In this document: one piece after another, positions 5,056 through 18,522 of the stretch
How the letters are laid out: each line of letters starts with the position of its first letter
Position numbering within the stretch: position 1 is the first letter of the stretch
NCBI GenBank assembly: GCA_019752535.1
Contig: JAIEMA010000014.1
Span: 1-42,035, forward strand
DNA: 42,035 nt
Reading direction: 5' to 3'
Source of the DNA: Bacteriovoracaceae bacterium
GTDB lineage: Bacteria; Bdellovibrionota; Bacteriovoracia; Bacteriovoracales; Bacteriovoracaceae
Notes under the pieces: model-generated
The model's input: the letters and a program-made list of their open reading frames with translations, nothing else
What the model was told of the DNA's origin: nothing
The model's database searches: none
Made by a program: the position numbers and the translations under genes

Positions 5056-6690
5056 CTACATATTAAGATTCACTCCAGCTGGCTTCACGATAGAGAGTAA
5101 GTTCTGGAAAGCTTGAGTGACCTGAAGGGCCATCTTATGACCAGCATCTGACTCTACTTTCTTGATCTCACCGTAGTTATCGTAAGCAACATTAATTTTA
5201 CCAACCTTCTCCATCTCAATCTCTACAGGTTTCCCGAGAGCATTGTATTTAAAGGAGAGAGTGCGTCTCTGATTAGTCTTTTTATCGTCATCAACCATCT
5301 TTGTGATCTTACCCTTAATATCGTAAAGAAGAAGTACTGCTTTACCCTTATCATTCTTAGCCGTCACGAGGTTACCTTGTTTATCGTATGTGAACTCAGT
5401 AGTTCCCTCGTTATTAGTGACCTTCTTAATTTTGTTAATGGCATTGTCATAGTCAATTTGGACAAAATCACCCTTGGTTGATGATTTTTTAATCAAGAGA
5501 CCTTTGTCGTTATATTCAAAATTAGTGACTTGCTTACCGCGAGCAATCTTTAAAGGAAGTGAGCAACACTCTGAATAGATCGTCTCCGTCTTGATACCAT
5601 TAATGTCAGTTACAATTCTGTAAGTGTAACGAGATCCATCAGGACGAGTCTTGAGTTCATACTCGTAACGATTTGAAGCAGGCTTTCCATCAAATCCATT
5701 CTTAATAACTGTCGTCCAATAATGATCATCCGGAGCTTTAGTGTCACTTCCGTATTCATACTTAGTGCTTTCACCATTGCGATCCATAATCTCAGTTACG
5801 AACAAAGTTTTTGGTTCGTACTTAATCGTCATTTTACTTTTATCGCTATAAGATATTTGAGTCAGGTTATGACTCTTGTCATAAGAATAATCGTAAGTAT
5901 TACCACCAACGTCTTTTGAGGAAACAAGATTATCTCCCTCGTATTTGTATTCTGCTTTTTTATCCCCCGCACTCCAAACTTCTTTCACTTTACCATCTGC
6001 GTACCAGCTTAAATAAATTTGTTTCGCCTGAGAATCTTTGATACTTTCAAGTTTTCCGTCTTTCCAAACAAAGGCAATGCTGTAACCCGTCTTGTCAGAA
6101 GACTTAACCAGATTACCCTTCATATCAAATTGTTCAGTCTTGCCGTCAGGATAAACTCGACGATAGCCATCCTTCTCCACAACTAACTCTTGAGCTCCAC
6201 GATCTGAAGAATAAAGAACAGTGCCCACAGCGACGTTGGTTTGAACTTTAAAATTTAAGGCGTATGTATGTCTAAGTTCAGCATTGGTTTTTAATTTTTC
6301 AATGAGTTGTTGAGCAGAACTTTCAGAAAGCTGTGTTCTCTTTCTCATCGCTTCAACGATCTTCTTTGCAGCAGCTTCTGCATCAACAGCTGTCTTAGGA
6401 GTGAAGCGAGTTTTTCCGCCGGCCCCATGCTCATGAATAACAACAGATCCATCCGCTGAAGTTTCAAGTTTTGTTTCGAAGTCTGAACCCCAGCCAAAAC
6501 CGAACCATCCAACCTCAGTGGCTTTAGAGTTATATGTTCGAGTGATCTCTAGTTTTTTACCACCGCCAGGAACGACAATATCAGTGTAAGAGATATAGAA
6601 GTTACCATTCTTTAAATTCACACCTGCAAGTACAGGCAACGCAAATAAAGCCAGAATGAAAAGGCTTGCGAAGCGTTTTAAAAAATTCAT
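5056..6690 (-). CDS. Exported RHS/YD-repeat protein
   Basis: A 544-aa exported protein. A signal peptide (residues 1-22, ending PVLAG) is followed by the N-terminal RHS module: NGNFYISYTDIVVPGGGKKL, ITRTYNSK and GWFGFGWGSDFET, the DUF6531-like start of many RHS/YD proteins. Degenerate YD repeats run from about residue 190 to 520 (YDKSHNLTQISYSD, YNDKGLLIKK, YDKQGNLVTAKND). It lacks the RHS core cage signature and any C-terminal toxin domain, so it is not a typical polymorphic toxin. I chose ATG 6690 because AGGTGG precedes it and it opens directly with the signal peptide; an upstream in-frame ATG at 6723 has no ribosome-binding site. It lies 76 bases downstream of tadB on the same strand and could be part of the pilus transcript. 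A cell-surface or periplasmic structural role is inferred. Confidence 0.82.
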   Translation of the reverse strand: MNFLKRFASLFILALFALPVLAGVNLKNGNFYISYTDIVVPGGGKKLEITRTYNSKATEVGWFGFGWGSDFETKLETSADGSVVIHEHGAGGKTRFTPKTAVDAEAAAKKIVEAMRKRTQLSESSAQQLIEKLKTNAELRHTYALNFKVQTNVAVGTVLYSSDRGAQELVVEKDGYRRVYPDGKTEQFDMKGNLVKSSDKTGYSIAFVWKDGKLESIKDSQAKQIYLSWYADGKVKEVWSAGDKKAEYKYEGDNLVSSKDVGGNTYDYSYDKSHNLTQISYSDKSKMTIKYEPKTLFVTEIMDRNGESTKYEYGSDTKAPDDHYWTTVIKNGFDGKPASNRYEYELKTRPDGSRYTYRIVTDINGIKTETIYSECCSLPLKIARGKQVTNFEYNDKGLLIKKSSTKGDFVQIDYDNAINKIKKVTNNEGTTEFTYDKQGNLVTAKNDKGKAVLLLYDIKGKITKMVDDDKKTNQRRTLSFKYNALGKPVEIEMEKVGKINVAYDNYGEIKKVESDAGHKMALQVTQAFQNLLSIVKPAGVNLNM

Positions 6691-6766
6691 GAGACCACCT
6701 TTTGGAAAAAACCTTTTTATCATCTTATACTAACTAGTTACGGATGGAAGCCGGCATATCTTTACG

Positions 6767-7753
6767 TTAGATTTTAATTGTAACAACCTTTGTGATAATC
6801 CAAAAGCCTGTACAACTGAGAGCTACAATCAGGATAAACATGATTATGCCTAGTGGAGTTGTAAATAGAACTCTCAAATAGTCAGGATCAGATGATCCAT
6901 TAATAGCAATCTGTGCGTAAGGCATGGCAAAAATCACAAGCCCCTGGAACATACCTTGGGCGACATAAGTCTCAATTTTTTGCTGCAGACGAACACGTTC
7001 TCTAATAACAAAAACAATTGTATCGAATACTTCAGCTAAGTTACCGCCTGTTTCGCGCAGAATATTAACCGAAGTCACAAACATTTCATTATCCTGAGTT
7101 TTGACTCTTTTGTTCAGATTCTCCAAAGCTTCCTCGAGGGGGACACCGATTTTTGCTTGCTGAAGAATAAGATTAAATTCCTGACTGACAGGAGCGGGCA
7201 TCTCATCTACAACCATGCCAACAGCTTGGGGCATTGAGAGACCAGCTCTAATTCCATTGGCCAACAAATTTAGTGCGTCTACCATTTGAGTTTGATATAG
7301 CTTCACTCTTCGTTGCTCCATGTAGTCAACAATGGGCTTAGGTAACTTCCAACCAATAAAAGCAAGCACACCACCCAAGAGTGCGCCACCTAGGAACATG
7401 CCAAAAAAGGCAAATATCCCGAAAACGAAAAAACCGAATCCGAAAGAAACACTTAAAAGCGCAATCGTCACTCTGGTGGGCGCGACTTCAATGTGCATAA
7501 TTTCAAATTTTTGAAGAATATAATCTCTTGTCCCATACGTTTGATCTTCAATCCAAGCAAACAACTTTTGTGAATATCTATACGTTACACCAAAAAAAAG
7601 TAACCCTATTGCTGCCAGTAAACCCTTTGACCCCAAGACATCCACGAGAAAGCTAAATGATTTCGTGACTGGCTCCTTAGGAGCAGGTTTGTCTTGTGCA
7701 AAAACCATCAAGGAGTAAAACAAATTTAAAATGATAAAAATTAATGTTTTCAT
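6767..7753 (-). CDS. tadB: Tad pilus inner-membrane platform protein TadB
   Basis: A 328-aa protein with a type II secretion F domain. The cytoplasmic half contains QMVDALNLLANGIRAGLSMPQA, then EFNLILQQAKIGVPLEEAL and the conserved ILRETGGNLAEVFDTI. Hydrophobic segments lie at about 45-60, 95-135, 265-285 and 300-322. It forms the membrane platform on which the TadA/CpaF ATPase acts to add Flp subunits. The N-terminus ([20 protein letters not shown]) looks like a cleavable signal peptide, which is unusual for this family. The start overlaps the CpaE-CpaF stop (ATGA). Most Tad loci carry two such proteins, TadB and TadC. Only this one is present here, so TadC is elsewhere or absent. Confidence 0.9.
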   Translation of the reverse strand: MKTLIFIILNLFYSLMVFAQDKPAPKEPVTKSFSFLVDVLGSKGLLAAIGLLFFGVTYRYSQKLFAWIEDQTYGTRDYILQKFEIMHIEVAPTRVTIALLSVSFGFGFFVFGIFAFFGMFLGGALLGGVLAFIGWKLPKPIVDYMEQRRVKLYQTQMVDALNLLANGIRAGLSMPQAVGMVVDEMPAPVSQEFNLILQQAKIGVPLEEALENLNKRVKTQDNEMFVTSVNILRETGGNLAEVFDTIVFVIRERVRLQQKIETYVAQGMFQGLVIFAMPYAQIAINGSSDPDYLRVLFTTPLGIIMFILIVALSCTGFWIITKVVTIKI

Positions 7754-9858
7754 TTGTTTATAAATAATCCTCTTGGAACTTTATAACCCTTAGCTTCAAG
7801 CTTCTCGATAAACTTAGGAATAAATCCTGTCGCCTGAAATTTACCAACAATTTTTCCATCTCTTCCAATACCCTCTTGCTTATACATAAAGATATCTTGA
7901 AGAGTGATGACATCTCCTTGGATGCCTCCAATTTCAGTAATATTCATGATCCTTCTTGATCCATCATCTAGTCTTGATTGCTGAACAACCATATGGACTG
8001 CAGAAGCAATCATTTCTCGAATGGCTCTTTGAGTGAGAGGAGCGCCAGAATACTGCACGAGCGTCTCAATTCGACTCATTGAATCGCGTGGCGTATTGGA
8101 GTGAACTGTTGTCATTGAGCCATCATGGCCAGTGTTCATCGCTTGCAACATATCTAATGTTTCACCGCCTCGACACTCACCAACCACGATTCGGTCTGGA
8201 CGCATTCGAAGAGTTTGCTTAACGAGACAGCGAATATCGATTTCTCCGTCGCCCTCTAATGAAGGGGGGCGAGTTTCAAGACGGACAACGTGATCCTGAG
8301 GAAAGTTTAATTCTGCCGAGTCTTCGCAAGTAATGATTCGCTCATTCGATTGAATAAAACCACCCAACATATTAATGAGTGTTGTTTTACCTGATCCAGT
8401 ACCACCAGAAACAACAATATTTCTATGGGCTTCAACTGATATTCGTAAAAAATCGGCCATCTCCTCAGTCATCGATCCGAACTTAACTAAGTCTTTATAA
8501 GTCAAACGCTTGTCAGGAAACTTTCGAATTGTGATGACACATCCATCAATCGCACAAGGTGGAATGATAGCGTGCACACGGGAACCATCTGCAAGTCGAG
8601 CATCGACATAAGGTGTTTTTTCATCAATACGTCTTCCAATCGGTGCCACAATTCGCTCAATCACATTTCTGACCTGCTGATCATTCGTAAAAATGACCTC
8701 TGACTTTTTCACCTTACCACTTTGTTCGTAGTAAATTTTCTTAGGTCCAACGACCATAATTTCTGAGATTGATTTATCGGCAAGCATATCTTCGAGCGGA
8801 CCAAGACCCAAGGCTTCGTCGAGAATTTCTTTTACAATCTTATTCATATCCTCGCGCGAAACCAAGACCGTTTTTGTATCTTCTTTTCCAAGAAGATCTA
8901 CGATAACTTTTTTAGTTTGCTCTCTGAGAATGATTTTGGCTTTGGGATCATTTTCATCTTGCTTCTTGAGGTCCATCTCTTCCACAAGAGCTCTATGAAT
9001 TCTGGATTTTAAATCCGTCCAGGCATCTTTAGCTTTCTTTTCGTCTAAAGCGGCATCACCCGTCGTGGAGGGCTTCTTTCCCGTATCCTGAGGTTTAACT
9101 AATTTTGCAAGAGTTGGAAGCACATTCTTTTGAATCAATTTACGAGCTAGATCAATAATTCCTGCAGCAAATGGCGCGTTTTTCGCCACCGTAATAACAG
9201 GAGCTGAACGAGTTAAGGCCGCTGTGCAATTTTGATCATCTCTTGGCACAACACCAAAAACGGCTTTGCCCATTTGCTTGCCAATAACATCAGGAGAGAC
9301 TGGATGACCATTTACAAATTGGTTTACAACAATTTGAACCATATCTTTTGGAAAGAGCATCGTGACCAAATCACCATACATTCTTCGAGCTTGATTCACT
9401 GCCAAGAGATCTGGTGTAACAACCATTAAAATAAGAGTTGAAAACTCTAAAGCTTTAAGGGTTAAAGGTGAGAGCTCACTTCCCCCATCAATGATTGTGA
9501 GCTGATATATATTAGTAATCGCTTTAAGTGATTTCCCCAACCCTTCTTCATTTATTTGTGAAGCGGCTGAAGCTTCAGTAGGCATACCAATATAAGAGAT
9601 TCCTGCTTTATGATCTGCCGTAAACAACATGATAGATTTAGGGTCAATCGCACCATTAAATTCTGCGAGATCTTTTATTGATTTCTTGGATCTTAAACCT
9701 GTTATTAAATTTTGATCGCCACAAGCCTTCTGATCAAAATCGAGCAACAAGACTTTTTGCCTAGACTCTCCGGCCCAAGCCAGAGCAAGATTGGCCGCGA
9801 GTTGCGACTTACCTACCCCTCCCTTACCGCCGATGATTGTAATAATATGTCCTGACAT
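7750..9858 (-). CDS. CpaE(TadZ)-CpaF(TadA) fusion, pilus assembly ATPase
   Basis: One 702-aa protein combines two normally separate Tad proteins. Residues 1-260 are a MinD/ParA-like P-loop ATPase (deviant Walker A KGGVGKS at 12-18, then VLLLDFD), as in CpaE/TadZ, which places the pilus machine at the pole. No receiver domain precedes it. A charged linker (about 260-340, [20 protein letters not shown]) leads into a secretion ATPase of the CpaF/TadA family. This has Walker A GGTGSGKT at 485-492, an Asp box ITCEDSAEL, Walker B-like VVGECRGGE and His box MTTVHSNTP. It powers Flp subunit assembly. The reading frame is continuous with no internal ribosome-binding site that stands out. The start ATG 9858 follows the secretin stop by 16 bases. 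Confidence 0.93.
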
Positions 9859-9874: not shown

Positions 9875-11392
9875 CTAGTTAGATCTTCTTCTAAACTTTT
9901 TACGAATCTCTTCTGTTCCAGTAGAAGCCGATTCAATAATTTCTGGTGTTAAAAACATGACGTACTGATTTCTTGAAATCTGATGATTTTTTGAACGGAG
10001 AATTCTAAACAAGGCTTGAGGTGGAGCACCTCCTCCAGAAGCCTGACTTGGTGCTGGATCATCCTTATCATAAGAGGTGGTGGATTGGTTTTGCACAATA
10101 CCACCAATCGCCGCGGATTCTTTGCTTTTAATGACAACAGTGGTTTGAACTTTATTTGTTGTTGAAATGGGGGTTCCACTTGTCGATACTGATGCTGTAA
10201 GTTTCACATCAATACCCACACCAAGCTCAACTTTCTCTTGCTCTAAAATTTTTGGGGTTACATCCATCGCAAACCCAACACTCGCCGTCGACGCTCGAGT
10301 GAAATCACCTGTACCCACAGCAAACGGAATATCCGTTTGCTTATTGATATTGGCTTTGACTTGATCTTTCGTCACGACCATTCCCGATTGCACAATACGA
10401 GCATAGCCAGCAGAGCGAGCCGAATTTAGCTTTGGAAACAAATTAGATATTGTAGCGCTCAAGGTATTACTAGAGGTGCTCGTCACCCCCCCGGCAGAGT
10501 TTTGGCCAAAGCTAATAGCACTCTGATCTTGGCTCATCAAGGGAGCCCATTTAAATCCAAAAATTCGAGAATAATCTTTTGATAATTCCACAAATTGCGA
10601 AGTGATTTTTAACTGTTTTGGTGGAGGGGCAGGGTCTTTCTTTTCATTAACAGAAATAAAATCAATAATTGATTCTCTTTTTACAGAAGATAGACCTTTT
10701 GTATCCAAGCTAATTTTATCTGGAAGATACGCATTAGCGATTGCGACGGCGAGATCCTTCTTATCTTTTGAACTTACCACTCCCTCAAGCCAAAAAACTC
10801 CATTCACAACTCTTACAGTGACATCTTTAAGATTATTTCGAGCTAACTCATCCATCATCTTTCTAGCAATAACTCTTTGTGTCTGTGGGGAGAGAGTAAC
10901 TAGTCGCAGAATATCCTGGTATGTTTCAAGCACAGTATTAACTCGAGTGATATCACTGGGCACGACAATTTCTCCACCAACTACAACTTTACCGCCTTCG
11001 ATTTTAATTTCTAGCCCTTCTACATCACCAATTAATTCTCTAAGTTCTGTCACGACTTGAGATTTTCCACTTGCCGTCACAACGACGATGTAGCGAATTC
11101 TGACATCACCGACGTTGTCACGGATTGTGACAGATGTTCTTCCTGGTTTTCTACCCTTGAAAGTTATTTCTTTTTTTTGAGGGGCAAGCACCAAATCGAG
11201 TAATGATTCATTACCAATTTGAACTTTTGTATTGAAATCAAAGTCGAGTTTTACTATTTCATCTATACCAACAGCGACTTCCAATTCCTTTTCTTGACCA
11301 GCGGCATCCCCGCCTGCTGTCGCAGGATCATTCTGAGCCCAAGCAATAGAACTCAAAAGAAGAGTAAATATTAAAAGTGACCTAGCGACCAC
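9875..11392 (-). CDS. cpaC: Tad/Flp pilus outer-membrane secretin CpaC/RcpA
   Basis: A secretin of 505 aa that forms the outer-membrane pore for the Flp pilus. It has a signal peptide (VARSLLIFTLLLSSIAWAQ). The pilus-secretin N-terminal domain follows (VGIDEIVKLDF, GRKPGRTSVTIRD), then BON-like periplasmic modules (VTVRVVNGVFWLEGVV) and a secretin core with ILEQEKVELGVGIDVKLTAS, VQTTVVIKSKESAAIGGIV and the closing FLTPEII. I chose GTG 11392, preceded by a G-run and opening directly at the signal peptide. A start at 11494 would put 34 non-signal residues in front and overlap cpaB by over 110 bases. With GTG 11392 the overlap with cpaB is 11 bases. Same operon as the other tad genes. Confidence 0.9.
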   Translation of the reverse strand: MVARSLLIFTLLLSSIAWAQNDPATAGGDAAGQEKELEVAVGIDEIVKLDFDFNTKVQIGNESLLDLVLAPQKKEITFKGRKPGRTSVTIRDNVGDVRIRYIVVVTASGKSQVVTELRELIGDVEGLEIKIEGGKVVVGGEIVVPSDITRVNTVLETYQDILRLVTLSPQTQRVIARKMMDELARNNLKDVTVRVVNGVFWLEGVVSSKDKKDLAVAIANAYLPDKISLDTKGLSSVKRESIIDFISVNEKKDPAPPPKQLKITSQFVELSKDYSRIFGFKWAPLMSQDQSAISFGQNSAGGVTSTSSNTLSATISNLFPKLNSARSAGYARIVQSGMVVTKDQVKANINKQTDIPFAVGTGDFTRASTASVGFAMDVTPKILEQEKVELGVGIDVKLTASVSTSGTPISTTNKVQTTVVIKSKESAAIGGIVQNQSTTSYDKDDPAPSQASGGGAPPQALFRILRSKNHQISRNQYVMFLTPEIIESASTGTEEIRKKFRRRSN

Positions 11393-12218
11393 CTGGCCCC
11401 CCGGTTCTAGCTTTTTCTTTGTTTTGCTGATCAGCAAAATAAGTCTTCGCTTCTGCAGCGTCTTCACCCAGTACATCGAACAAACGTGTTCCACTTATTC
11501 TTTCAATGGCTTTATCATCGTTATTTCTTAGTGTGAGATAGATATTTCCGCCGGCGGTAACAAGGAAGATCATCTTCTGCACTTCAAACGGAGTTAACTC
11601 GAGAGTGACAGTGTTGAAATTGACGTACTTATTCATCTTCATCTCTCTCGATTCAGTCTCAGAAGTTTGAAGATTCACGATAGGAACGCTATTTGTAACA
11701 TACAGGCCAGTTGATAAAACCAAAACGTCTTGTAAAACCGTCTTCACTTTAATTCTTTCTTTTTTTCCACCGGCATAATCAATTGTCGCTAACACATCAA
11801 CGCGATCACCCGGCTTAATCAGTTTAGAGACGGCTTGTGATTCTTGAACTTGAACAGAAAGTGCACGCTTTCCGACTGAAATTTGTCTCGACAAACCTGA
11901 CTGGGCTCCAGGATAGGTAATACGAGGACGGGTAATTTGCTCACCAGTCTTAATTGGAACGGCAGCAATGGTGTTGTAGAGTTCTTCGATTTTCTTAAAA
12001 TGACCAGGCATCTGGAATTTGTTCGGAATATTTTCAATCTTCAACTTTCTATCATCGATCAATTCAAGTTCTTTGATATCAACTTTTGCCACAACAACCG
12101 GAGATGGATTTCCATATTCCTCAACGAACTGTGCTTCTCGTCCTTCCAAGAAAGAGTAGACCATAAACATCGCAATACCTGCGATCACTAAACTCAGTGT
12201 AAACGCACGACTATTCAT
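11382..12218 (-). CDS. cpaB: Flp pilus assembly protein CpaB/RcpC
   Basis: A 278-aa periplasmic protein with one N-terminal membrane segment (MNSRAFTLSLVIAGIAMFMV). A SAF domain (VVVAKVDIKELELIDDRKLK...) follows, with the CpaB signature SGLSRQISVGKRALSVQV and PGDRVDVLATI. It works with the secretin in the outer-membrane part of the Flp system. The start has AAGGAAG upstream. The stop lies inside the start region of the secretin gene. The C-terminal tail is Lys/Gly-rich and variable. An 80-base gap separates it from the preceding tadE-like gene, the longest gap inside the assembly part of the operon. Confidence 0.93.
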   Translation of the reverse strand: MNSRAFTLSLVIAGIAMFMVYSFLEGREAQFVEEYGNPSPVVVAKVDIKELELIDDRKLKIENIPNKFQMPGHFKKIEELYNTIAAVPIKTGEQITRPRITYPGAQSGLSRQISVGKRALSVQVQESQAVSKLIKPGDRVDVLATIDYAGGKKERIKVKTVLQDVLVLSTGLYVTNSVPIVNLQTSETESREMKMNKYVNFNTVTLELTPFEVQKMIFLVTAGGNIYLTLRNNDDKAIERISGTRLFDVLGEDAAEAKTYFADQQNKEKARTGGPGGR

Positions 12219-12298: not shown

Positions 12299-12808
12299 TT
12301 ACTGAATGTAGCAACTACCTTCATCGATGGCTGATTCAATCGAGCTTCCGCTTGGGAGTTCAACAAAGTCATTGGGAGCACCACTGCGACGAAAAGTCGC
12401 TCCACAAGCACCATATACCGTTTCAACTCTTATAAATTGAGTGGTGACATCTGTATAAGTCTGATCACAAGAGTCTCCTGCTGCAGCTGCAAATGGTAAA
12501 TTTAATCGATAACAAGGGGCCAATGGATTTGCACCGTTTTGTAATTCATTTGCCCAGCCAATGAAAAAATGCCCAAAAGAGTTCCAGCTGTTATTCAGAA
12601 GAGATCCACCATCCCGTTGAGGTTTGGAGATTTGAGAATTATTTTGCATGCGAAAATAGAAATAAGCACGAGTCGCTTTTTGCTGATTAATCGATCCATG
12701 GATCGCATCACCAAGACTGACGACAACCGTGTACATCATTACCATAAAAGGTAAGAAAATAATAAATTCGACAAGGGCTTGGCCCTTTTGATTAGGTTTA
12801 GCATCCAT
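12299..12808 (-). CDS. TadE-like pseudopilin
   Basis: A 169-aa protein with a TadE-type N-terminus: a short basic leader, G|QALVEFIIFLPFMVMMYTV, then one membrane helix and a globular C-terminal part with several cysteines that could form disulfides. GQ(A/S)xxEF is the class III prepilin cleavage site. The enzyme is probably the CpaA-like peptidase encoded in this operon. ATG 12808 gives an 11-base overlap with the upstream tadE-like gene; a TTG two codons upstream (12814) is an alternative. It is expected to be a minor pilus component or initiation factor. Confidence 0.8.
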   Translation of the reverse strand: MDAKPNQKGQALVEFIIFLPFMVMMYTVVVSLGDAIHGSINQQKATRAYFYFRMQNNSQISKPQRDGGSLLNNSWNSFGHFFIGWANELQNGANPLAPCYRLNLPFAAAAGDSCDQTYTDVTTQFIRVETVYGACGATFRRSGAPNDFVELPSGSSIESAIDEGSCYIQ

Positions 12809-13370
12809 TATCAAACACCGTCATATCACTTTGATCCGTGCAGGTACCAGTACTGCCAGTAATGGATAAAACTATGGCCTGACAAGTTCTCTGCCAACAT
12901 TCGGTTCGAACAGGCTCTTTTCCTAAATATGACTCAGAAACATGCTTTGCTATTGTTCCACCAGCTACAGATTGAAAAAAAGAAAGTGGACGCTCAAAAA
13001 CGGTGTAGGCACCAACAAACAAAGCTGCATCACCAGACGATACCGTATGAAATGGATTTATGTGAAACCCATCATCAGAAGCACCAGGAGATTTTATACT
13101 GTCAGAGGGAATCCCCAAACTTTGGATTTTAAATCTTTGAAATGTAGTTAAAGCTGATTGACTCGCAATCGCATGAGACTGACCGGGATCCACACTGTGA
13201 GACTCAACTGTTAAGTAAGTTCTGCTGGCCATAAAAGTTGCATAATGGACCAAGTATCCAACAGAATAATTCATCGCAACGTTTACAAACAAAAAGACAA
13301 TACCCAAACCAAACATAAAAGTTAGGATGAATTCAATTGTTGATTGTCCCTTTTGATTATTCTTTTTCAT
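12798..13370 (-). CDS. TadE/TadF-like pseudopilin
   Basis: A 190-aa protein beginning MKKNNQKG|QSTIEFILTFMFGLG: a class III prepilin leader, a single hydrophobic helix, then a polar exported domain. That domain has cysteine pairs near the C-terminus (TECWQRTCQ, GTCTDQ, NGC). I chose ATG 13370, which overlaps the upstream pilin stop as ATGA. An ATG at 13424 would add 18 residues before the leader and lies inside the previous gene. Probably processed by the CpaA-like peptidase and incorporated as a minor pilin. Confidence 0.8.
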   Translation of the reverse strand: MKKNNQKGQSTIEFILTFMFGLGIVFLFVNVAMNYSVGYLVHYATFMASRTYLTVESHSVDPGQSHAIASQSALTTFQRFKIQSLGIPSDSIKSPGASDDGFHINPFHTVSSGDAALFVGAYTVFERPLSFFQSVAGGTIAKHVSESYLGKEPVRTECWQRTCQAIVLSITGSTGTCTDQSDMTVFDNGC

Positions 13371-13675
13371 GGATAATTCTTTAATGGACCAAAAAAGTGA
13401 GTTGAAGAGGTACTTGAATTCCAATAACTCGGATGAGTCGCATTAGAATAATTTATTTGAGAGTACGGTAGAACACCCTGTGAACCAAAACGATAATTCC
13501 ACTCCGTTGTGGCTTTCATTTTCTGAGCGAAAGTCCCATTTCTGCCTATGAACTGCTTAAATAGCGGTGAATTGATAACTATGTAGACGAGACTAATCAC
13601 CACTGCCAAAAGCAGAATGTATTCAACAGTACTTTGACCTGTCGCTTTTAAAAACTTATTAGATCGATTTCCCAT
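13367..13675 (-). CDS. Flp-type pilin, third copy
   Basis: A 102-aa Flp-like prepilin with a leader MGNRSNKFLKATG followed by QSTVEYILLLAVVISLVYIV, the typical Flp cleavage site plus hydrophobic helix. The polar C-terminus is longer than in ordinary Flp (about 65 residues, rich in Ser, Asn and aromatic residues), so it may be a minor or adhesive subunit. Candidate starts are ATG 13675 and ATGs at 13684 and 13690; 13675 was chosen for leader length. It overlaps the prepilin peptidase gene by 28 bases. Confidence 0.8.
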   Translation of the reverse strand: MGNRSNKFLKATGQSTVEYILLLAVVISLVYIVINSPLFKQFIGRNGTFAQKMKATTEWNYRFGSQGVLPYSQINYSNATHPSYWNSSTSSTHFFGPLKNYP

Positions 13676-14154
13676 CCTAACCATAACCATGCAAGAAGAA
13701 TGACTGGAGCAAATGAAAACTTTGTTCCAAAACTCTCCTTGATGACCTTTATATTTCTCGATTTAATTCCCAACATGATTTTTTCATAATTCTTAGCGAA
13801 ATTGGTAAAAAATAAAAATCCCCCAATCAGAATCGTTGAAAGAAGTAACAATACAAGTGCTCTTGGTTGTAAAAGAACTGGAATCAGTAAAAAAAATGAA
13901 AAAAGAAATTTTGAATCTCCTCCTCCCATAATTCTCAGCAGAAACAACCCAAAACCGACAAAGAGAAAAACAATTGAATAAAGAAATGTGCCCCATGCCA
14001 AGGGGTATTGCGCTGGCCAGAGAAGCAATAGAATCACAAAACAGATGAGATTAAGAATTGACCAGTAATTGGGAATTTTTTGGGTTTTAATATCACCCCA
14101 GGCCACGGCCAGAAGTTCTATGACAAGAAACCAATAAACTGCGACAGGGATCAA
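13648..14154 (-). CDS. cpaA: Prepilin peptidase CpaA/TadV
   Basis: A 168-aa polytopic membrane aspartyl protease that removes the leader of Flp pilins and TadE-like proteins. The two catalytic aspartates are visible: D21 in WGDIKTQKIPN and D80 in the GxGD-type motif MGGGDSKF. It lacks the N-methylation domain of larger type IV prepilin peptidases, as expected for the TadV type. Translation must begin at TTG 14154, since no ATG or GTG occurs before the first catalytic Asp. That TTG overlaps the upstream stop (TTGA) and has a G-run upstream, so translation is coupled. Confidence 0.92.
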   Translation of the reverse strand: MIPVAVYWFLVIELLAVAWGDIKTQKIPNYWSILNLICFVILLLLWPAQYPLAWGTFLYSIVFLFVGFGLFLLRIMGGGDSKFLFSFFLLIPVLLQPRALVLLLLSTILIGGFLFFTNFAKNYEKIMLGIKSRNIKVIKESFGTKFSFAPVILLAWLWLGWEIDLISF

Positions 14155-14369
14155 GGAGCCCCCGTATAACCATTTCCGTAACCAGCAAAGAAGCAGTTAG
14201 ACTTGCAAACACCTACTGAGAGATTTTGCGAGAGAACGTGACCTAAATTTCCGATTGAATCTCTAAAGAACGTATTGAAGCGAGCTGAAATCTTGGACGC
14301 AATGAGGACCATAAAGACGAGAACAAATAAATACTCGACGGCAGCTTGACCTGTGGATTTGTTTTTCAC
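14151..14369 (-). CDS. Flp-type pilin, second copy
   Basis: A 72-aa prepilin with a very short leader MKNKSTG, then QAAVEYLFVLVFMVLIASKI and a polar tail with two cysteines (GVCKSNCFF) that could form a disulfide. Start GTG 14369, with GGA a few bases upstream; no in-frame ATG is available. Its stop overlaps the TTG start of the peptidase gene. It differs from the main Flp in tail length and in the cysteine pair, so it may be a minor pilin. Confidence 0.8.
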   Translation of the reverse strand: MKNKSTGQAAVEYLFVLVFMVLIASKISARFNTFFRDSIGNLGHVLSQNLSVGVCKSNCFFAGYGNGYTGAP

Positions 14370-14415: not shown

Positions 14416-14610
14416 TTAGTTAATGTTATCTAGGATCCCGTCTGCTTTAGAGAACACTTTGTTCACTAAGCCGTTACTTCCGACGAGTTTTTCCTCGATC
14501 ACACCTTTAAATTTAAAAATGACGAACGCCACAACCGCCACCAGGAGAATATACTCCGTCGACGTTTGCCCGCTTTCATCTTTAAGATACGCGGTGATCA
14601 TGTTTTTCAT
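14416..14610 (-). CDS. flp: Flp pilin, probable major subunit
   Basis: A 64-aa Flp prepilin: leader MKNMITAYLKDESG, cleavage before QTSTEYILLVAVVAFVIFKF, then a short polar tail. It is first in the locus and has the strongest ribosome-binding site (GGGGGAG). A sigma-28-like promoter lies about 32-59 bases upstream. Together with the two other Flp-like and two TadE-like genes, the locus encodes five candidate substrates of one peptidase. In Bdellovibrio an Flp pilin is required for predation; whether that holds here is inference. Confidence 0.92.
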   Translation of the reverse strand: MKNMITAYLKDESGQTSTEYILLVAVVAFVIFKFKGVIEEKLVGSNGLVNKVFSKADGILDNIN

Positions 14611-14641
14611 ACTGTCTCCCCCTGCATTAGGTTCTGATGTC

Positions 14642-14669
14642 TTATCGACAAAAACCTGCAGAAACTTTA
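14642..14669 (-). promoter_or_regulatory. Sigma-28 (FliA)-like promoter of the flp/tad operon
   Basis: On the minus strand the -35 box is TAAAGTTT (8/8 to the FliA consensus) and the -10 box is GTCGATAA (7/8), separated by 12 bases rather than the usual 11. The predicted start is about 25 bases before the flp ATG, a natural leader length. Confidence 0.65.
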
Positions 14670-14816
14670 AACGATAGAAAGAAAGTTAACTATTTTATTA
14701 TATCGCGACGCAGTATTCTACGCAAGCAGTCTAACTGTTTGTTTTATTTGAACTTCCTATACTTTCGGCAAAAGCTTTCCATGGCCCAAGGCCTGTAATA
14801 AGCGTAGAATTGGAGA

Positions 14817-14998
14817 TGGGTCTGGGTGGATCTTAAAGTTTCGCCCCTACGATTCAGTTATCGGGAGCAGTCCCTGGTCACGGTGTGCAAGCTCACCTGA
14901 TTTGAAAAAGTCAGATTGTGAGAAGCCTAAAGTGATTACTAACAGCGCCCACCTAAGTTTTTAGGGGCGCGAAACGAATCATCATCTATCCGGACCTT
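14817..14998 (+). ncRNA. ssrS: 6S RNA
   Basis: A regulatory RNA that binds sigma-70 RNA polymerase by mimicking an open promoter. Conserved 6S sequence is visible: GAGAAGCCTAAAG (14920-14932) followed by AGCGCCCACCT (14944-14954) and a CCTAA / TTAGG hairpin. This is the same order as in proteobacterial 6S RNAs. The ends pair over a long distance: GTTTCGCCCCTA (14838-14849) with TAGGGGCGCGAAAC (14962-14975, a two-base bulge), and GGTCTGG (14819-14825) with CCGGACC (14990-14996). An apical hairpin GCTCACCTGATTT... / ...GTCAGATTGTGAG lies in the middle. Length is about 180 nt, normal for 6S. A TAGAAT -10-like box at 14805-14810 fits the 5' end. The exact ends are estimates. Confidence 0.87.
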
Positions 14999-15060
14999 CT
15001 CTTACCCTCTAAATCCATCCAAAAGTTGACGTGTTGTATCGAGAGACTCATCATAAATAT

Positions 15061-16561: not shown

Positions 16562-17395
16562 TTACGAGAGCAATTTCAGTGCGAACTGCGGGGCGTTGTT
16601 TGCTTGAGCTAAAACCGACACAGATGCTTGGTTCAAAATATTGTTTCTTGCCAAGTCTGCCGTTTCCGCCGCTACATCAACATCCCTGATTCGCGAGTTA
16701 GCTGCACTAAGGTTTTCATCTGTAACCGCCAAGTTATTAACTGTCGATTGCAAACGGTTTTGTAGGGCACCGAGATTTGCTCGGACTCCACTAACCCTTG
16801 TAAGTGCATCATCAAGCTTCGCGAGCGATAGTTGCGCTCCTTCTTTACTGGCGATTGTTTCGCCAATAATTCCCAGTGAGGCAATGGTAGCGTCAGTTGA
16901 TGTTGAGTCGTATTTAATCCGGTCTTGAGTAGGATCATTATGAATCCCGACCTGAATATCGACCACACCGCCTGTGCCATCGAGGAGTTTTCTTCCATTG
17001 AAGTCCAAGCCTGTTGAGATCCTGTTGATCTCATCTTTGAGCTGTTGAAATTCGATGTCTGAAAATCCACGTTCCGTATCTCCCACTGTATCAGATGCTG
17101 CTTGCACTGATAACTCGCGAAGTCTGACAATAAGGTTAGAGATCTCAGATAATCCGCCTTCAGCTGTTTGTATGAGCGAAATACCATCATCTGCGTTCCT
17201 CTTAGCCTGTCGCATTCCGCGGATATGACCTTTCAACTTCTCGCTGATGGCCAAACCTGCTGCATCGTCAGATGCGCGGGTGATGCGTTCCCCTGAGGCT
17301 AACTTCCTCAGGTTATTGTCAGTGTTAAACTTATTAACTCCTAAACTACGTTGTGCTGATAAGCTTGCAACGTTTGTATTTATTCTTAAACCCAT
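16562..17395 (-). CDS. fliC: Flagellin (copy B)
   Basis: A 277-aa flagellin with both conserved ends that form the filament core: MGLRINTNVASLSAQRSL and ASDDAAGLAISEKLKGHIRG at the N-terminus, and ANSRIRDVDVAAETADLARN plus ASVSVLAQANN at the C-terminus. The variable surface-exposed centre is short (about 140-190). It is the downstream member of a pair and ends at a strong terminator. It has GGAG seven bases before ATG, but that signal lies inside a seven-codon ORF with a stronger ribosome-binding site. No clear promoter was found in the 180-base gap after copy A, so part or all of its transcript may come from there. Confidence 0.97.
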   Translation of the reverse strand: MGLRINTNVASLSAQRSLGVNKFNTDNNLRKLASGERITRASDDAAGLAISEKLKGHIRGMRQAKRNADDGISLIQTAEGGLSEISNLIVRLRELSVQAASDTVGDTERGFSDIEFQQLKDEINRISTGLDFNGRKLLDGTGGVVDIQVGIHNDPTQDRIKYDSTSTDATIASLGIIGETIASKEGAQLSLAKLDDALTRVSGVRANLGALQNRLQSTVNNLAVTDENLSAANSRIRDVDVAAETADLARNNILNQASVSVLAQANNAPQFALKLLS

Positions 17396-17576: not shown

Positions 17577-18425
17577 TTATCCATTAGCTGATGCATTGAT
17601 CAAGCTAAGGGCTGAAGTTGTTGACTGGTTCGCCTGAGCAAGGACTGAAGTACCAGCCTGCATCAAGATATTCGTTCTAGTCATTTCTGCTGTTGCTGCA
17701 GCTACATCTGTGTCGCGGACACGAGAATTTGCAGCAGACAAGTTTTCTGTACTGACCTGAATGTTATTCACTGTCGACTGAAGGCGGTTTTGAAGCGCAC
17801 CGAAGTCAGCACGAATACCAGAAACAGTTTGAATCGCTTGGTCGATCGCTGCCAATGAGTTCTGAGCAGAGATTTTGTCCGACACTGAAGCAAGGTTCAA
17901 ACCAAGAGCTGCAACGTTTACGTCTGCACTTGAAGCATCAAACGTTAATCTGTCAGCTAAAGGGTCATTTCGAGTACCAATTTGGATATCAAAGACTGAT
18001 CCAGTACCATTCAATAGTGGAACGCGGTTAAATTCAGTTGAGTTCGCAATACGATCAACTTCAGCTAACAACTGTTCAAATTCCACGTTCAAGAATTTAC
18101 GTTCAGTTGGCCCGATGGTGTCAGAAGCTGCCTGCACTGACAATTCACGTAGGCGAATCATAATGTTTGAGACTTCGGACATTGCGCCTTCAGCGATTTG
18201 CACTAATGAAATACCATCCTGCGCGTTTCGTTCCGCTTGGCCTAAGCCGCGGATCTGCGCTTTCAAGTTTTCAGAGATTGCCAATCCGGCAGCGTCATCA
18301 CCAGCGCGATTGATTCGCTGACCTGATGATAATTGCTCGAGAACTTTTTGCTGAGCGAGACGAGTCCCGTTCAAGTTCCTTTGAGCGTTGAGAGAAGAAA
18401 CGTTCGTGTTAATACGCAAACCCAT
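17577..18425 (-). CDS. fliC: Flagellin (copy A)
   Basis: A 282-aa flagellin, clearly paralogous to copy B (same MGLRINTNV start, DDAAGLAISE, RLRELSVQAASDT, LQNRLQSTVNN, and C-terminal ANSRVRDTDVAAATAEM). It lacks a large variable domain. I chose ATG 18425, with AAGGAGG seven bases upstream, because it begins exactly at the conserved flagellin N-terminus; an in-frame start 29 codons earlier is not plausible. A sigma-28-like promoter lies 71-97 bases upstream. The two flagellins probably form sections of one sheathed polar filament, as in Bdellovibrio, which has several. Confidence 0.97.
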   Translation of the reverse strand: MGLRINTNVSSLNAQRNLNGTRLAQQKVLEQLSSGQRINRAGDDAAGLAISENLKAQIRGLGQAERNAQDGISLVQIAEGAMSEVSNIMIRLRELSVQAASDTIGPTERKFLNVEFEQLLAEVDRIANSTEFNRVPLLNGTGSVFDIQIGTRNDPLADRLTFDASSADVNVAALGLNLASVSDKISAQNSLAAIDQAIQTVSGIRADFGALQNRLQSTVNNIQVSTENLSAANSRVRDTDVAAATAEMTRTNILMQAGTSVLAQANQSTTSALSLINASANG

Positions 18426-18495: not shown

Positions 18496-18522
18496 TTTTC
18501 GACACTCCCCAAAAGAACTTGA
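18496..18522 (-). promoter_or_regulatory. Sigma-28 (FliA)-like flagellin promoter
   Basis: On the minus strand TCAAGTTC and GTCGAAAA are separated by exactly 11 bases. Each is a 6/8 match to the FliA boxes TAAAGTTT and GCCGATAA. The predicted start gives a leader of about 64 bases for flagellin A. Confidence 0.6.

Follow-up and report, generated by a model that had tools for sequence, protein, structure and literature searches.

A conserved FliA-type promoter site in front of the Tad/Flp pilus operon of a Bacteriovoracaceae bacterium

We found that the minus-strand sequence 14669–14642 of a 42,035-nucleotide stretch of a Bacteriovoracaceae genome (the window; contig JAIEMA010000014.1, assembly GCA_019752535.1) is very probably a genuine promoter for FliA (sigma28). 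Transcription from it would cover flp1 and the Tad genes behind it, with the pilus made together with flagellin in the attack phase. This reading draws on comparative sequence data and on analogy with published systems. The initial annotation had proposed a FliA-like promoter before the Flp operon, and the proposal is supported by conservation of the site in the family and the wider phylum, by the FliA gene of the genome and by published reporter data on homologous promoters. The window genome belongs to the sister group of Bdellovibrio, not to Bdellovibrio itself; most of its named close relatives are metagenome drafts of Bacteriovoracaceae. A FliA–Tad link has already been published in kind, so the idea itself is not novel.

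The genes behind the site form one run that holds a flp pilin, a prepilin peptidase, RcpC, RcpA, TadA and TadB/C, which identifies it as a Tad/Flp (type IVb) pilus operon:

14416–14610, minus strand: flp1, a Flp/Fap-type pilin of 64 aa (PF04964, E 2.7e-4, below the curated cut-off; KDESGQTSTEYILLVAVVA motif common to relatives)
14151–14369, minus strand: second Flp-like pilin (GQAAVEY motif; no Pfam match)
13648–14154, minus strand: TadV-like prepilin peptidase (PF01478)
13367–13690, minus strand: third Flp-like pilin ORF (GQSTVEY motif; no Pfam match)
12299–13424, minus strand: two minor pilin-like ORFs (12299–12814 TadE-like, PF07811 below cut-off; 12798–13424 without a Pfam match)
11382–12218, minus strand: RcpC/CpaB (PF16976)
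9875–11494, minus strand: RcpA/CpaC secretin (PF00263)
7750–9858, minus strand: ParA-like (TadZ/CpaE-like) domain fused to a TadA-type ATPase (PF01656/PF13614 and PF00437, one frame)
6767–7753, minus strand: TadB/TadC-type inner-membrane protein (PF00482)

The fusion of the ParA/TadZ-like domain to the TadA ATPase at 7750–9858 (minus strand) is a single 702-aa frame. Directly behind the operon, on the same strand, lies a gene for an RHS-repeat protein (5056–6723).

Read from the window, the minus strand from 14669 to 14642 is TAAAGTTT-CTGCAGGTTTTT-GTCGATAA, and the elements in front of flp1 are as follows:

14662–14669, minus strand: FliA-type −35 box TAAAGTTT, from the sequence (TAAAGTT invariant in four genus members)
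14642–14649, minus strand: FliA-type −10 box GTCGATAA, from the sequence (CGA core common across the family)
14616–14622, minus strand: Shine-Dalgarno-like GGGGGAG preceding the flp1 ATG, from the sequence

The E. coli sigma28 consensus is TAAAGTTT-N11-GCCGATAA, with a spacer of 11 bases. Scored against this consensus, the −35 box matches at 8/8 positions and the −10 box at 7/8, for a total of 15/16 with a spacer of 12 bases. The exact −35 box and 7/8 −10 box originally claimed at 14642–14669 are therefore present, on the minus strand. The distance to flp was also correctly described as natural: 31 nt separate the −10 box from the flp1 ATG (14610), and transcription may reasonably be expected to start near 14635.

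One alternative holds that an AT-rich consensus has been matched here by chance, the flp operon being unrelated to FliA. Consistent with this alternative, the exact string is not enriched in the genome, a draft of 3.49 Mb in 76 contigs: scanning for the box pair, as had been suggested, with TAAAGTTTN{10,13}GNCGATAA gave one match and one in the reversed control, and so showed no excess. Relaxing the search did not produce an excess in this genome either, with 77 matches to a looser pattern against 78 in the reversed control and 200 matches to a 0–2-mismatch pattern against 192. We therefore rejected genome-wide counting as proof, since the exact, 0–1-mismatch and 0–2-mismatch patterns all stand at the level of their reversed controls. 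A narrower pattern, THAAGNTTN{11,12}NMCGAWAA, matched 188 times against 63 in the reversed controls of 18 genomes, and 11 times against 4 in the genome of the window. Within the window, three sites had up to three mismatches, against 0.61 expected, and among the three only the flp site had none. Because the exact match only equals its control count, the string alone is not decisive; it stands at chance level genome-wide, and it is position and conservation that decide.

To assess conservation, we used cpaB, which was found in 89 of the 95 family genomes, and collected its upstream sequences. This gave 89 loci, two of which come from one genome. We located flp1 in 78 loci and not in the other 11, some of which are cut by a contig end; together with the window this gave 79 Bacteriovoracaceae loci. 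Within the 160 nt preceding flp1, 64 of the 79 loci had a match of at least 12/16, and 15 loci had no match of 12/16 or better. The reverse strand gave 6 such loci, and 30 shuffled sets averaged 5.6, with 10 as the highest value. A site with the CGA core, scoring at least 11/16 and lying 10–65 nt before the ATG, was present in 71 of the 79. The 79 include L086 (G027:C76), a short contig in a genome of another genus whose cpaB is 90% identical to that of the window's genus; this contig is perhaps a binning contaminant. We also examined 40 loci belonging to other families in the phylum, picked among the listed matches to spread over families, and took the first pilin-like ORF as the flp1-like gene, which was present in 38. 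Of these loci outside the order, 34 had a match of at least 11/16 (reverse strand 7, shuffled mean 8.7) and 22 a match of at least 12/16 (reverse strand 0, shuffled mean 1.8); one of them, L392, has TAAAGAGA-N12-TCCGATAT, an 11/16 match 21 nt before flp1. Because it is conserved before flp1 both in the family and in the wider phylum, the FliA-type site is, as judged from these comparisons, old and selected. A chance match is hardly credible for a site that is kept before flp1 at these frequencies and retains its CGA core and spacer, and whose homologous promoters are reported to respond to FliA (PMC5430801).

Two further elements lie upstream of the FliA-type site:

14697–14725, minus strand: sigma70-like promoter TTGCGT-N17-TATAAT, in tandem with the FliA-type site (genus conservation)
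14816–15000, plus strand: 6S RNA gene, divergent from flp1 (Rfam RF00013, 64.9 bits; gathering score 46.4)

A sigma70 promoter scan overlooked the TATAAT element because its −35 box is weak (TTGCGT, 3/6). The element was revealed by the genus alignment, in which TATAAT is invariant and its flanks diverge. An exact TATAAT on the flp strand was present in 62 of the 79 family loci, compared with 8 on the reverse strand, and other AT-rich hexamers in these loci were about equally common on both strands. Pairs of the form TTG..-N16–18-TATAAT-like with a score of at least 9 occurred in 50 of the 79 loci, against 14.2 per shuffled set. The Tad operon in this order thus probably has tandem promoters. 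It is possible that the upstream promoter (14725–14697) mainly drives flp1 and that the FliA-type site has a minor share. The invariance, strand bias and pairing of TATAAT argue for this possibility, which we nevertheless consider unlikely: the −35 box is weak, TATAAT is rare outside the order (6 of 37 loci, reverse strand 2), where the FliA-type site is present, and in B. bacteriovorus HD100 the flp1 promoter is reported to respond to FliA and flp1 to be confined to the attack phase (PMC5430801). The conserved same-strand TATAAT promoter upstream does suggest that FliA need not be the sole driver of the Tad operon.

The 6S RNA scan covered 80 of the 89 family loci, and 61 of the 80 scored above the gathering score (19, 14, 13 and 15 in groups of 20). 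By our reading of the orientation in which the loci were fetched, the 6S RNA lies on the strand opposite the operon in every positive family locus, and it was found in none of the 40 loci outside the order. It also lies beside the operon where flp1 was not found (L115, L141, L122, L139, L108 and L114). The order along the region is the divergent 6S RNA gene, the TATAAT promoter, the FliA-type site and flp1. The presence of 6S RNA in most loci, including these six, raises the alternative that the region is conserved chiefly for the sake of the 6S RNA gene, with flp1 just sharing its upstream region. This is very improbable, as the FliA-type site and the TATAAT element are both oriented toward flp1, and the FliA-type site occurs outside the order without 6S RNA. 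The arrangement of 6S RNA and tandem promoters, which the initial annotation had missed, is the freshest part of this work; we found no report of it in the open-access literature searched.

The flagellin genes of the window offer a comparison. Two of them lie on the same strand, about 2.8–3.8 kb upstream of flp1, and a FliA-type site precedes the upstream one:

17577–18425, minus strand: upstream flagellin gene (PF00669, PF00700; ATG at 18425)
18496–18522, minus strand: FliA-type site of the upstream flagellin gene, TCAAGTTC-N11-GTCGAAAA, 12/16

This site ends 70 nt upstream of the flagellin start codon (18425), and a similar site occurs at the same place in the genus. The similar pair of boxes reported for flagellin at 18496–18522 is therefore real, but only the upstream flagellin has it. 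We rejected the downstream flagellin gene (16562–17395) as a second FliA target, its best match being 9/16. The spacers differ between the two classes of target. Of the 71 kept family flp1 sites, 52 have a spacer of 12, 18 a spacer of 11 and 1 a spacer of 13, whereas among 28 upstream flagellins, counted by eye, the spacer is 11 in 20 (2 of which score just 10/16), 12 in 2 and 13 in 1, with no CGA-core site at 70–101 nt in the remaining 5. The difference between 52:18 and 2:20 gives a Fisher p of 5e-8 on related genomes that are not independent, and is suggestive only. Mapped attack-phase promoters of B. bacteriovorus are reported to have the form TTAAG-N16-CCGATA (PMC3627812), which by our own counting corresponds to a 12-base spacer, as at flp1.

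The genome of the window encodes a full-length FliA (G000:C11:11226–11894; 272 bits against a TIGR02479 cut-off of 189.6). Among 129 genomes of the order, five had no flagellin, namely G028 and four genomes of the genus g32 (G032, G065, G076 and G084). The same five, all drafts of 88–99% completeness, had no match to the flagellar rod family, and each encodes a full-length FliA (271–276 bits). On a CpaB tree of 43 rows the flagellum-less genomes need two changes, so flagella were probably lost twice. In G028 (L101) a FliA-type site is kept, 27 nt upstream of flp1; the Tad locus of g32 lacks flp1. We found no support for the idea that FliA was kept in g32 because of the Tad operon, since its four genomes have no GQTSTEY-type flp1 beside the Tad genes; in one of the four (L122) a good FliA-type site precedes the gene before the pilins. 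The flagellated relatives G003, G041 and G048 also lack a GQTSTEY-type flp1, so the loss of flp1 is not tied to that of the flagellum.

The narrower pattern matched 41 times in the five flagellum-less genomes, compared with 21 in the control, with no excess in G032 and G065 (5 against 6 in each). We inspected 31 of the 41 matches, favouring stronger ones in two genomes. In g32, 19 of 22 lie 6–45 nt upstream of an ATG that opens a frame of 40 codons or more, as do 4 of 9 in G028, both counts being without a matched control. Among the candidate targets are relatives of one sigma54 activator, present in both flagellum-less lineages, and, in g32, a PilZ-GAF protein. In L329, L332 and L345 the FliA-type site precedes the ATG of the sigma54-activator gene by about 30 nt, the site in L332 being read from the sequence. 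In g32, a gene for an FlhF-like GTPase adjoins fliA.

As previously reported, FliA activates Tad/flp promoters of B. bacteriovorus HD100 and B. exovorus JSS (Avidan et al. 2017; PMC5430801). The evidence for FliA control of the TAD operons came from lacZ reporters in ΔfliA E. coli; fliA itself could not be deleted. The same paper reports that HD100 flp1 is expressed in the attack phase only, from a promoter that responds to FliA, and that promoter sequences suggest FliA–TAD control in other predators of the group; Bacteriovoracaceae genomes are among those it includes. In B. bacteriovorus, FliA is described as a global attack-phase regulator (PMC3627812). The initial annotation had coupled the pilus to the flagellar programme and explained this by a motile attack phase that must also attach. 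The coupling is largely right, although published; the rationale is weak, because HD100 flp mutants are reported to be unable to prey but still to bind prey (PMC5430801), which makes attachment an unlikely reason for it.

By analogy, FliA would read the flp1 site in the uncultured organism of the window. In the attack phase, polymerase carrying FliA would most likely begin transcribing the Tad operon near 14635. The housekeeping TATAAT promoter may provide basal or early transcription, with FliA taking over in the attack phase while 6S RNA perhaps holds back the sigma70 polymerase. We tentatively extend this to a broader proposal, which is possible but on present evidence rather doubtful: in Bacteriovoracales, the Tad operon and the 6S RNA gene would form one sigma-factor switch, in which 6S RNA of the attack phase restrains the sigma70 polymerase, the TATAAT promoter falls silent, FliA takes over and the pilus marks the change of polymerase; FliA would then be a flagellum-independent attack-phase regulator, kept through two losses of the flagellum. 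These results extend the FliA–Tad link from two Bdellovibrio species to a sister order and suggest an ancestral origin of the link in these predators. With its 6S RNA, TATAAT promoter and FliA-type site, the region is a small and testable system for studying how sigma factors compete when the life cycle switches. Lineages that have lost the flagellum but kept FliA allow the role of FliA in predation to be separated naturally from motility.

Compared with known systems, the flp1 site resembles the E. coli sigma28 class 3 promoters in both boxes; here the spacer is 12 rather than 11 and the target is a pilus operon. The attack-phase promoters of B. bacteriovorus have the same boxes and the longer spacer, but they come from mapped transcripts (PMC3627812), whereas the site here is read from sequence. 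In non-flagellated Legionella oakridgensis, from an unrelated group, FliA and FlgM are reported to be kept, so that FliA outlives the flagellum as it does in the flagellum-less Bacteriovoracales (PMC5655016). The closest systems are the flp1 promoters of HD100 (bd0119) and JSS (A11q_2366), which are likewise FliA-type, with the same strand logic and a similar distance to the ATG (PMC5430801). Here, by contrast, the genome is that of a Bacteriovoracaceae bacterium and the site lies nearer to the E. coli consensus (15/16, compared with 11/16 in L392). TadV is present, and the operon is preceded by a TATAAT promoter, seldom found in other orders, and by a divergent 6S RNA gene, which was absent from all 40 loci outside the order.
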